Below, one piece after another: positions 43,060 to 64,000 of a DNA stretch of 64,000 nucleotides (position 1 is its first letter; each line of letters opens with the position of its first letter). The stretch is from Streptomyces sp. MMBL 11-1 (GTDB taxonomy: Bacteria > Actinomycetota > Actinomycetes > Streptomycetales > Streptomycetaceae): the NCBI RefSeq assembly GCF_028622875.1, contig NZ_CP117709.1:6265001-6329000 (forward strand), given 5' to 3'. The notes below the pieces were generated by a model. The model saw nothing but the letters and a program-made list of their open reading frames with translations, did no database searches and was not told where the DNA came from. Position numbers and translations under genes: made by a program.

Positions 43060-46000
43060 GTGGCGACGGAGATGATCGCAGGGCGGTTCCGGCTTCTGGG
43101 GGCTGTGGACTCGGGCAACATGGGTGAGGTCCACAGAGCCGAGGATCTTGATGCCGCCCCGGGCGACGCCGACCGCGTCGTGGCGGTCAAGCTGATCCTC
43201 CGGCGCCGGTCCGGTCTGCGGATCGACACGCACGGCGACACCAAGACGGTGGAGCGGTTCGCCCGCGAGGTGCGGATCATGCAGACCTTCGGCCGGCACC
43301 CCAACCTCCCGCGTACGATCGCCGGCGGCGTGGACGACACGAACGGCGGCCTGCCCTACCTCGCGATGGAATTCCTCGACGGCCATCCTCTGGCCGACCT
43401 GGTCGCCGACGAGCCGCAGCTGCCGATCTCCTGGGCGGGGGCCATCGCCGCGCAGATGGCGGAGGGACTCAAGGCCGCTCACGTCGAGGGTGTCGTGCAC
43501 CGCGACCTCAAGCCCCGCAATGTCATGCTCACCCGCGGTGGCCTCGTGAAAGTCCTCGACTTCGGCATGGGGCGGATCGTCGACGACCCGGACGGCGCCA
43601 AGCTCACCAGCACGGGCGTCACCGTCGGCACCGCCCGCTACATGGCCCCCGAGCAGTTCCAGGGTGGAGCCGTGACCCCGGCGGCGGACCTCTACGCCCT
43701 CGGCTGCGTCCTGTACGAGATGCTCCTCGGCGTGCCGCCGTTCGTCGGCACCTCCGCGTACGAGCTCGGCGAGAAGCACGTCCATCAGGCGCCGAACCCG
43801 GTCCGGTTGGTCCGGCATGACGTCCCCGAGGCGCTCGCCCGCCTCGTCGACCGCCTGCTCGCCAAGAATCCGGCGGACCGCCCCGAGAGCGCCGCCGCGG
43901 TACGGGACACCCTGCTGCCGTTCGTCGCGCCCGCCGAACCGCTGCCCGCCTGGCGCGAGTTCGACCCGGTGGGCCGCCTCCTCCAGGACCGGTCCGCGCT
44001 CTCCACGCCCACGGCGCGGCAGGCTCCGGCCGACCAGCCGCCCGCCCAGACCCGCCCACACACGTCCGGCATGGACGTCTTCGGCGTCCACCGGGACCTG
44101 ATCGACGAGTACCGCGCCTTCACCCAGGGCGGCACGATCATCCGTGACGAACGCGTCGCCGACTTCGTCCGGCGCGACCTCGACGCCAAGTCCCAGTGGC
44201 CCAACCCGTGGATCTCCCTCAACCCCTTCTTCGACTCCGCCGGCACCGTTGCCGAGCTCGCTTCCCAGGGCGTCCTCCACCCCGAGTGCGCGCGGATCTT
44301 CCAGGCGAAGAAGGCCAGGGGCGGCACCGTCTGCGACGGCCGCCCGCTCACCCTCCACCAGCACCAGCGCGAAGCCGTCGACGCCGCCCGGTCCGGGGCG
44401 TCCTACGTCCTCACCACCGGCACCGGCTCGGGCAAGTCCCTCTCCTACATCGTGCCCATCGTCGACAAGGTCCTCAGGGACCGGGAGACGGAGCCGCGAG
44501 GGACGGCCAAGAGAGTCCGCGCGATCATCGTCTACCCCATGAACGCCCTGGCCAACAGCCAGCTCAAGGAGCTGGAGAAGTACCTGAGGGACGGCTACGG
44601 CGCAGGACGCGAGCCCGTCACCTTCGCCCGCTACACCGGCCAGGAGGACGACGCCGCCCGCAGGGAGATCCGTGACAACCCGCCGGACATCCTGCTCACC
44701 AACTACGTGATGCTGGAGCTGATGCTCACCCGTCCCGACGACCGAGACAGCCTCGTCCGGATGGCCAAGGGCCTCGAATTCCTCGTCTTCGACGAACTCC
44801 ACACCTACCGAGGCCGCCAGGGCGCCGACGTCGCCCTGCTCATCCGCCGCGTCCGCGAGGCGTGCCAGGCCGACCGTCTCCAGTGCGTCGGAACCTCCGC
44901 CACCATGTCCACCGAGGGCACGATCGACGAGCAGAAGAGCGTGGTCGCGGGCGTCGCCTCCAAGCTCTTCGGCACGAGGATCCGCACCGAGCACGTCATC
45001 GGCGAGACCCTGGTCCGAGCCACCGACCCGGCCCCCGACACCGTCCCTGCCGAGCGGCTGCGCACCACCGACGCGCCCCGTGCGTACGCGGACCTGGTCC
45101 GCGACCCGCTTGCCCGCTGGATCGAGACCCGCTTCGGCCTGGCCACCGACACCCTCACCGACCGCCTCGTCCGCCAGAAGCCCGCCAAGATCGAGGACGC
45201 GGCCGAGGACCTCGCCCGGGAGAGCGGCGTGTCCGTCGAGGACTGCGCCGCGGCCCTGCGCGCCACCCTGGAGGCCGGCTCGCAGGCCCGTCACCCCGTC
45301 ACGGAGCGCCCCCTCTTCGCCTTCCGCCTCCACCAGTTCCTCTCCAAGGGCGACACCGTCTACGTCACCCTGGACGACCCGGCCAGCCGACACCTCACCC
45401 GTGACTACCAGCAGGTGCAGCCCGGCACCGACGGCAAGCTCCTCATCCCGCTCGCCTTCTGCCGGGAGTGCGGCCAGGAGTACCTGACGGTGTGGCGCAC
45501 CGAGAAGGACGGAGAGGTCCGCTACGAGTCCCGCCGCGACACCTCCGCCACGGGCGGCAGGGCCGGCGACGGCTACCTCTACGTCGGCCGCCCGTGGCCC
45601 CGCTCGCTCGATGAGGCCGTCGCCGAGCGCAAGCTGCCGGAGTCGTGGCTGGAGCTCGACGACCGTGGTCAGGAAGTCGTCAGGAAGTCGTACCGCGAGC
45701 GCGCGCCCCGCGCCGTGACCGTCGATCCCTACGGGTACGAGGGACGGGGCGACCTGGACGCCGCCTTCATCCCGGCCCCGTTCCGCTTCTGCATCCAGTG
45801 CTCGGTGTCCTACGAGCAGCCGCGTGGCAAGGACTTCGCGAAGCTCGCGACCCTCGACCAGGAAGGCCGGTCCTCCGCCACCTCCCTGGTGTCGGCGGCC
45901 GTCGTCCGCTCCCTCAAGGCCGTTCCCGAGGAAGCCCTCGACAAGGAGGCGCGCAAGCTCCTCACCTTCGTCGACAACCGCCAGGACGCCTCCCTCCAGG

Positions 46001-63759: not shown

Positions 63760-64000
63760 CGGTGGTCCGGTCGACGCGCCCACGATCGACGGGGGCCGAA
63801 GCGCTCTCGTACTCGCGCTGGCCGCACGTGCCGAAGAGGTCCTGGGCGCTCACCCTCGCACTCGCGCCCTGACCACGAGCCTGCCTCGTGCGGACACGAG
63901 CCCGCTGCGGATCGCACTGCTGGGCCCGTACAGCGCGGGGAAGTCCACGCTCGTCGCGGCACTGCTCCGGCTCCCGTCGGCCGACATCGTCGATCTCGTC
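63752..64000 (+). CDS. Second dynamin-family GTPase (partial, cut by window end)
   Basis: The frame opens with ATG at 63752, overlapping the previous stop by 8 bases, and is still open at the window end after 83 codons. The P-loop GPYSAGKSTLVAALL (Lys64) is close to the dynamin-family G1 form GxxSAGKSSL. The residues before it form an N-terminal helix (SALVLALAARAEEVL). Together with the upstream GTPase it forms a tandem pair. The rest of the protein and the operon end lie outside the window. Confidence 0.8.
   Translation, partial: MADGGPVDAPTIDGGRSALVLALAARAEEVLGAHPRTRALTTSLPRADTSPLRIALLGPYSAGKSTLVAALLRLPSADIVDLV

Follow-up and report, generated by a model that had tools for sequence, protein, structure and literature searches.

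An ARMADA Type I-like operon in Streptomyces sp. MMBL 11-1 followed by an exchangeable cassette with a predicted Hsp70-RNase and Leo-type GTPases

The analysed stretch of DNA, called the window throughout, comprises 64,000 nucleotides of the Streptomyces sp. MMBL 11-1 genome (NZ_CP117709.1, positions 6265001-6329000, also labelled G000:C1:6265001-6329000). Eight genes, here named A to H, follow one another on its plus strand, the first starting at 43060 and the last running past the window end to a stop at 65494, 1494 bases beyond it in the same genome (L004:4752-6494). The intergenic distances from A to H are +44, -1, -4, -4, -4, +2, and -8 bases, as stated in an earlier note on this DNA, which had described one coupled, co-directional unit joining a restriction-like half to a chaperone-RNase-GTPase half; this division is likewise borne out by the domain searches and by its recurrence in other genomes. 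We read the locus as a two-part operon, in which genes A-B-C resemble Type I of ARMADA, a YprA-family helicase system named in a 2025 preprint (Bell et al., PMC12458937), and the five genes D-H form a cassette in a fixed, exchangeable slot. Taken jointly with the second-layer mechanism proposed below, this reading has a chance of roughly one in two.

The proteins were compared with the Pfam, PADLOC, and NCBIfam model libraries and by sequence searches against the PDB; none of the eight reached a curated NCBIfam cut-off among the matches listed (for A, the best 25 of 37). Gene A (43060..49371, 2103 amino acids, aa) encodes a protein with a Ser/Thr kinase at the N-terminus of a YprA/DruE-type helicase and an MrfA-type Zn-binding domain. 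Pfam recognized the kinase, an SF2 helicase, and the Zn domain (MZB), the kinase motifs VAVK, HRDLKPRN, and DFG are present in the PknB-like part (43060-43950), the best PADLOC match was DruE3 (346 bits), and YprA (6znp) was matched in the PDB. At the C-terminus a PDFV...FVDG motif was found, which is putatively Vsr-like, judging from the motif itself and from the description of ARMADA in the preprint (PMC12458937). P0284 was the sole kinase-less relative of the helicase part noted among the best 120 of 7994, so the kinase-helicase fusion is, on the proteins compared, the usual arrangement in A's actinobacterial group. Gene B (49416..52325, 969 aa) encodes a RapA/SNF2-type, DrmD/BrxHII-like helicase (SF2/SNF2 by Pfam), with PADLOC scores of 1837 bits for the model PDLC02853 'DpdE', 285 for DrmD, and 195 for BrxHI/II, and NCBIfam scores for DrmD (318, cut-off 610) and DpdE (180, cut-off 500) that both stay below the cut-offs. 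Gene C (52325..56398, 1357 aa) encodes a PglX/DrmMI-like N6-adenine methylase, matching the Eco57I/MmeI/N6_Mtase models of Pfam and, best in PADLOC, DrmMI (225 bits), and it carries the motifs DPACGSG and NPPW.

Given its 1837 bits for B, PDLC02853 was evidently built on proteins near-identical to B. Its 'DpdE' label would misassign ARMADA loci such as this one to Dpd; Dpd itself was rejected, as the NCBIfam DpdE model scored 180 of the required 500 and no other Dpd gene occurs in the operon. The DrmD-like helicase and DrmMI-like methylase named in the earlier note were recovered by PADLOC, but the DISARM-like core that it had built on them did not hold: A keeps helicase and Zn domain together, its best match is DruE, and DrmC is missing. 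Class 1 DISARM, which shares the two DrmD-like and DrmMI-like components with this locus but has separate DrmA and DrmB as well as DrmC, was rejected on these grounds, there being no DrmA/DrmB split and no DrmC or PLD match among the eight proteins.

In the preprint, ARMADA Type I is described as abundant in Actinomycetota and as consisting of a YprA homologue closest to that of Druantia, which ends in a Vsr-type nuclease, and then of a BrxHII/RapA-like helicase and a PglX-like methylase, in that order (PMC12458937). A provides the DruE-like YprA helicase (DruE3, MZB, YprA in the PDB), B the RapA/BrxH-type helicase, and C the PglX-type methylase with NPPW; the three lie in the YprA-BrxHII-PglX order on one strand of an actinomycetotal genome, and A-B-C agree, by protein comparison, with ARMADA Type I in gene content and arrangement. 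The locus differs in the N-terminal kinase fusion and in the D-H cassette, neither of which is described in the preprint's main text, where a term search for 'kinase' gave nothing and where 'Hsp70', 'DnaK', 'DnaJ', and 'NYN' are likewise absent (PMC12458937). The phage assays reported there were done on ARMADA Type II, which carries ArmD instead, a GajB-like helicase with a RelE-like domain placed after the trio (PMC12458937), and D-H belong to other families. Of the claim that the set as a whole is unnamed, the part concerning the eight-gene combination stood in the literature searched (main texts), which describes neither the D-H cassette nor its tie to ARMADA; the A-C half already bears a name. 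The A-C half is a known 2025 system, and the D-H cassette and its slot appear to be new, as far as we are aware.

D (56395..58053, 552 aa) and E (58050..58697, 215 aa) matched no Pfam, PADLOC, or NCBIfam model at an E-value of 0.01, and PDB searches returned chance-like matches; an alignment of 24 rows was made for D. In profile-profile comparisons, a 110-residue part of D matched DnaJ J-domains over 28 columns (E 1.2e-4; 0.0013 for whole D) and E matched GrpE over 46 columns (E 5e-4), the swapped controls giving 0.09 and 0.47. The rows kept were 28/30 for the J-domain, chosen by HPD, and 12/30 for GrpE, chosen by its motif, and this motif-based choice, together with the trimming of D to its J-like 110 residues, favoured the match. 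The names J-like (D, in which HPD is absent) and GrpE-like (E) are weakly supported; the assignment of both in the earlier note stands to this extent, and the TPR repeats also claimed for D were not found by Pfam.

F (58694..60790, 698 aa) is, as had been proposed, an Hsp70 with a C-terminal NYN RNase domain of the Zc3h12a type, recognized by Pfam (HSP70, 228 bits; RNase_Zc3h12a, 28.5 bits) and by similarity to the ZC3H12A structure 3v32 (E 4.9e-4), with intact Hsp70 motifs and intact NYN motifs (DGSN and NDNY). G (60793..63759, 988 aa) has a long N-terminal extension and a GRTKSGKT motif at residue 435, and was matched by MMR_HSR1 of Pfam and LeoBC of PADLOC (119 bits). H (63752..65494, of which the window holds the part up to 64000; 580 aa) was matched by PADLOC LeoA (159 bits over residues 47-574), has GPYSAGKS at residue 58, resembles the LeoA structure 4aur weakly (E 2.8e-5), and reached 46.6 of the cut-off of 325 for the NCBIfam LeoA subfamily. 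Both are P-loop GTPases, in line with the earlier claim, with Leo as the nearest families. As in Eleos, two Leo-like GTPases are adjacent, with weak to moderate matches in the corresponding pairing (G to LeoBC, H to LeoA), but the matches are distant (119 and 159 bits) and the pair is set in a larger cassette.

A contig scan with 24 D proteins as queries returned 20 loci, of which five (L006-L010) have all eight genes, three (L011-L013) have D-H and no A-C, and twelve (L014-L025) have D-E-F alone. Across 392 Streptomyces genomes, 31 had a D match, strong in 20/31, and the neighbouring genes were inspected for 20 of these 31; one further full set was found there (L059, in G226), the contigs in G143 and G164 being those of L007 and L013. 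Including the window, the full A-H order is present at seven Streptomyces loci and the five-gene cassette at ten. The proteins of the six other full loci are down to 57-75% identical to those of the window, over a compared stretch that takes in just the later part of A; for G143 and G226 its start was observed as well. All ten five-gene cassettes with their context read sit at ARMADA or at its scar (described below). The earlier note stated that its reading would fall if the two halves never co-occurred elsewhere; they do co-occur, at seven loci and at three more with deletion scars. The halves can also come apart: most A-C-type loci are without D-H, D adjoining 3/69 B-like places, and the cassette is swapped at its slot. 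D-like proteins turned up in 2/396 genomes sampled across the phylum, both from the same genus as the window, and among the best 120 of 381 listed, Hsp70-NYN proteins come also from Kitasatospora, Actinacidiphila, and Thermopolyspora. Carriage of the cassette by mobile elements was rejected on the lack of D matches in 72,556 plasmid and 50,697 phage records and of any confirmed one in viral contigs. A short, weak D-like stretch elsewhere in the window's own genome (L072:9811-10083; G000:C1:663310-663579) is apparently a remnant.

The slot was delimited by comparing cassette-bearing loci with 20 cassette-less ARMADA loci, taken from the 69 B-like places as ones without an adjoining D (in G144 and G299 a D lies about 10 kb away). 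In all 11 pairs with versus without the cassette, some of which share loci, homology ends 18 bases before the stop of C. On the right side it returns 19-85 bases after the stop of H in 8/11 pairs and farther away in the other three (394 bases, 1.6 kb, and 4.6 kb). In window coordinates the exchangeable segment spans 56381 to about 65561 on the plus strand (its window part ends at 64000), with homology to L092 restarting at 65562. The closest pair, L010 versus L083, is 99.4% identical over 5158 bases of ARMADA, with the cassette in one and a segment of about 1.5 kb in the other. The final codons of C come from the cassette, C overlapping D by 4 bases, and the C-terminus reads ...GPRHE..GE with the cassette and ...GPRHPA or ...GPRHPE-A in three window relatives without it. 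At the cassette-less loci, the first gene behind C encodes a 416-462 aa protein of a single cluster in eight cases, an EcsC-type protein in three, members of other clusters in six, and an unclustered protein in one, with the downstream regulator following directly in two. Besides the EcsC-type proteins and the 416-462 aa family, which is unknown, the occupants directly behind the methylase in L077-L096 include a PASTA-domain protein and another unknown family, of 736-952 aa.

In a tree of 27 B segments (in which L096 is a long branch) the seven cassette-bearing ones are not one clade, presence and absence changing 6 times (shuffled mean 6.4), of which at least 4 changes are forced by supported branches (AU p 1.65e-92). 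The cassette Hsp70 proteins form one clade with a support of 99/99 (9 rows, L011 omitted). As the bearers are not one clade in B and are one in Hsp70, these trees indicate gain or loss of the cassette in more than one ARMADA lineage, several in all, and recombination in the flanks is the likely route of exchange.

Three loci have lost A-C and kept the cassette. In L012 and L013 a short fused open reading frame joins the start of A to the end of C, its stop overlapping D by 4 bases, like the stop of C in the intact operon, D-H are open in frame, and the deletion junctions differ between the two. A palindrome, GTTGAC-N3-GTCAAC, lies at 42905..42919, 155 bases upstream of the A start. It was found exactly upstream of 14/19 ARMADA I loci (L169-L187), as a variant in one, and was absent in four, and it occurred in shuffled upstreams at a rate of 0.0002, a control that keeps the single-base make-up only; it is probably a shared operator/promoter element of ARMADA I operons. 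It is present in L012 and L013 and absent in L011. With palindrome, A start, and cassette all kept, the cassette still remains behind the ARMADA control region after the loss of A-C. Another derivative, P0128, is an in-frame fusion of A residues 1-452 to F residues 482-698, that is of the kinase part to the NYN part, with everything between deleted. Such deletion derivatives are natural material for studying what the cassette does alone.

Chaperone trios related to D-E-F also accompany other systems. Of the twelve loci with D-E-F alone, 11 have a gene directly upstream for an SF1 UvrD-like helicase, roughly 1200-1350 aa long (two of the proteins were tested by Pfam); L015, where none was found upstream, is labelled as SF1-helicase in the Hsp70 tree all the same. 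DruE4, the helicase of Druantia type IV, was found in 13/392 Streptomyces genomes, with a trio directly behind it in seven and none in six. The trio loci in question are L064-L068, L070, and L103, whose Hsp70 proteins are without NYN; DruF was confirmed in 3/3 of the trio loci tested and DruL in one. The neighbours of Hsp70 groups 2b and 3b are mixed, with a DndB-like gene upstream in L063 and SF1 and Schlafen-type helicases near L061, and L062, L074, and L075 show no evident helicase directly upstream. Over the whole Hsp70 tree, the partner type changes 6 times versus 20.7 in shuffled trees and so tracks the phylogeny. Druantia type IV (PMC8565338) resembles the locus in that, among annotated families, DruE comes closest to A, and in the trios behind DruE4 (7/13). 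Its trio differs by the Hsp70 without NYN and by the lack of matched Leo-type GTPases, and the window has no DruF or DruL match in its operon. Druantia membership was also rejected for want of DruF, DruH, or DruL among the PADLOC matches listed for B-H. A J/GrpE/Hsp70 trio behind Druantia IV is not described in the literature searched, where the two records that bring Druantia and Hsp70 together both belong to the CoCoNuT work.

In that work, superoperons are described that combine Hsp70-like NBD/SBD proteins and RNases with DNA restriction systems, Druantia III among them, and an echeloned defence was proposed in which DNA is attacked first and RNA later (Bell et al. 2024, PMC11090510). CoCoNuTs, as described there, combine McrC and an McrB-like GTPase bearing an NxD motif with a HEPN RNase, and the Walker-A-like motifs of CnuD are degenerate (PMC11090510); here, by contrast, the RNase domain is NYN, the Hsp70 phosphate motifs look intact, and the J-like and GrpE-like genes are separate. 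Membership was rejected, since no McrB or McrC match is listed among the eight proteins. GAP1-N2 systems, mainly actinobacterial, resemble the cassette in that one or two GTPases are encoded alongside HSP70, GrpE, and either DnaJ or TPR proteins (Kaur et al. 2020, PMC7159879). Their GTPases have N-terminal zinc ribbons and transmembrane helices, whereas G and H have neither CxxC nor a transmembrane peak. They too were rejected as a label, with no CxxC in G, H, or D and no zinc-ribbon or FNIII match in Pfam (GAP1 was not probed by name); no YprA-type link to GAP1-N2 systems was seen in section 29 of that paper (PMC7159879).

Our preferred reading (probability about 0.5) is that the locus would be an ARMADA Type I operon with a second layer formed by a chaperone-gated RNase and Leo-type GTPases. 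In its favour are also the open D-H frames of L012 and L013, the intact Hsp70 and NYN motifs, the defence-island setting, and two precedents for an RNase beside a DNA-attacking system, namely ArmD of ARMADA II with its RelE-like domain and the CoCoNuTs. By inference from ARMADA II, which protects E. coli from phages without abortive death (PMC12458937), and from DruE, which cuts long DNA (PMC13192584), C would mark self DNA, and A and B would translocate on and cut foreign DNA, so that unmodified DNA of phages is the predicted target. D would recruit a phage-made or helicase-complex client, and D and E would then drive the ATP cycle of Hsp70, releasing or activating the NYN domain, which would cut RNA when the DNA layer is overrun; this chaperone-gated RNase action of F is a prediction from its domain make-up. 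G and H would take part in this late response, perhaps at the membrane, so that D-H would make up a second, cell-stopping layer after the DNA attack, in the order of the echeloned CoCoNuT scheme.

Several observations weigh against this proposal. D, being without HPD, may be unable to stimulate Hsp70 in the normal manner, and the J-domain and GrpE likenesses of D and E are weak. Mean hydropathy nowhere exceeds 1.6 over 19 residues of G or H and no membrane segment is predicted in either, so the membrane GTPases of the earlier note were not borne out. An RNase is not common to all trios: NYN was found in 0/6 of the Hsp70 proteins behind Druantia IV, and Hsp70 group 3b (L061-L063, L069, L071) has a changed NYN that is recognized by motif in 0/5, the one in L063 still matching the NYN Pfam model at 28.6 bits. 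The cassette also decays, as P0128 lacks D, E, and the Hsp70 part and as the in-frame scar junction of L011 is followed by frameshifts downstream and in D and F; the latter may be decay or an assembly error. Finally, the Hsp70-like part of CoCoNuT was read as RNA-binding and not as a working chaperone (PMC11090510).

Some of the same facts would fit a different role, in which D-E-F is a dedicated machine for assembling, loading, or restraining defence helicases of very large size and the NYN domain and the GTPases are later add-ons. The position of the trios behind helicase genes in ARMADA I, Druantia IV (7/13), and SF1 loci (11/12), the Druantia-linked Hsp70 without NYN, and the agreement of partner type with the Hsp70 tree all point that way, but the cassettes stay in frame at two loci without A-C, the 20/20 cassette-less ARMADA loci compared (chosen without an adjoining D) manage without a trio, and some loci of groups 2b and 3b (L062, L074, L075) have no evident helicase directly upstream. 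We regard this as rather unlikely, if well above a token chance. The two open scar loci without A-C would instead suit D-H as an independent defence system that shares no more than the ARMADA promoter and an island slot, without a functional tie to A-C, as would the exchange of the slot with unrelated genes and the differing histories of the two halves. This, too, seems improbable to us, a shade more so, given that the slot adjoins ARMADA or its scar for all ten five-gene cassettes with known context and that both the final codons of C and the 4-base overlap with D come from the cassette.

The remaining two explanations carry much less weight. Housekeeping RNA or protein quality control, suggested by the Hsp70, J-like, and GrpE-like parts, is very unlikely for genes that are coupled to restriction-type genes in a defence island and whose D matches are as patchy as 31/392 in Streptomyces and 2/396 phylum-wide, in a genome that has its own GrpE (1) and DnaJ (3) genes. 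That unrelated genes were joined by chance or in assembly, for which the occurrence of each half without the other could be cited, was rejected and is hardly credible, as the gene order recurs in six other Streptomyces loci, making seven in independently assembled genomes with identical borders.

Beyond the preferred reading of the operon as a two-layer defence locus, a wider one is offered tentatively, with somewhat less than an even chance of being right: the J-like/GrpE-like/Hsp70 trio could be a portable chaperone switch fitted to ARMADA I, Druantia IV, and an SF1-helicase system, with a swappable NYN/Leo cassette in ARMADA I that would give a chaperone-gated abortive layer exchanged independently of the DNA-attack genes. 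If this is true, a defence operon can be modular at one exact base, its DNA-attack genes staying while the second-line genes swap between strains, the Hsp70 ATP cycle would be the switch of an immune RNase, and ARMADA, Druantia IV, and the Hsp70-bearing CoCoNuTs would be linked by a shared accessory principle.

The operon lies, by the genes around it, in a defence-island setting. A SWIM zinc-finger protein (41216-42889), matched by PADLOC PDC-S62 at 131 bits, is encoded directly upstream, and a gene with an endonuclease VII domain (L004:6650-8002) follows just behind H. Farther downstream (L004:12663-19081), defence-like genes encode an SMC/AAA_21 protein (LmuB-like), an HEC-07-like protein, and AAA_5 and DUF4357 proteins.

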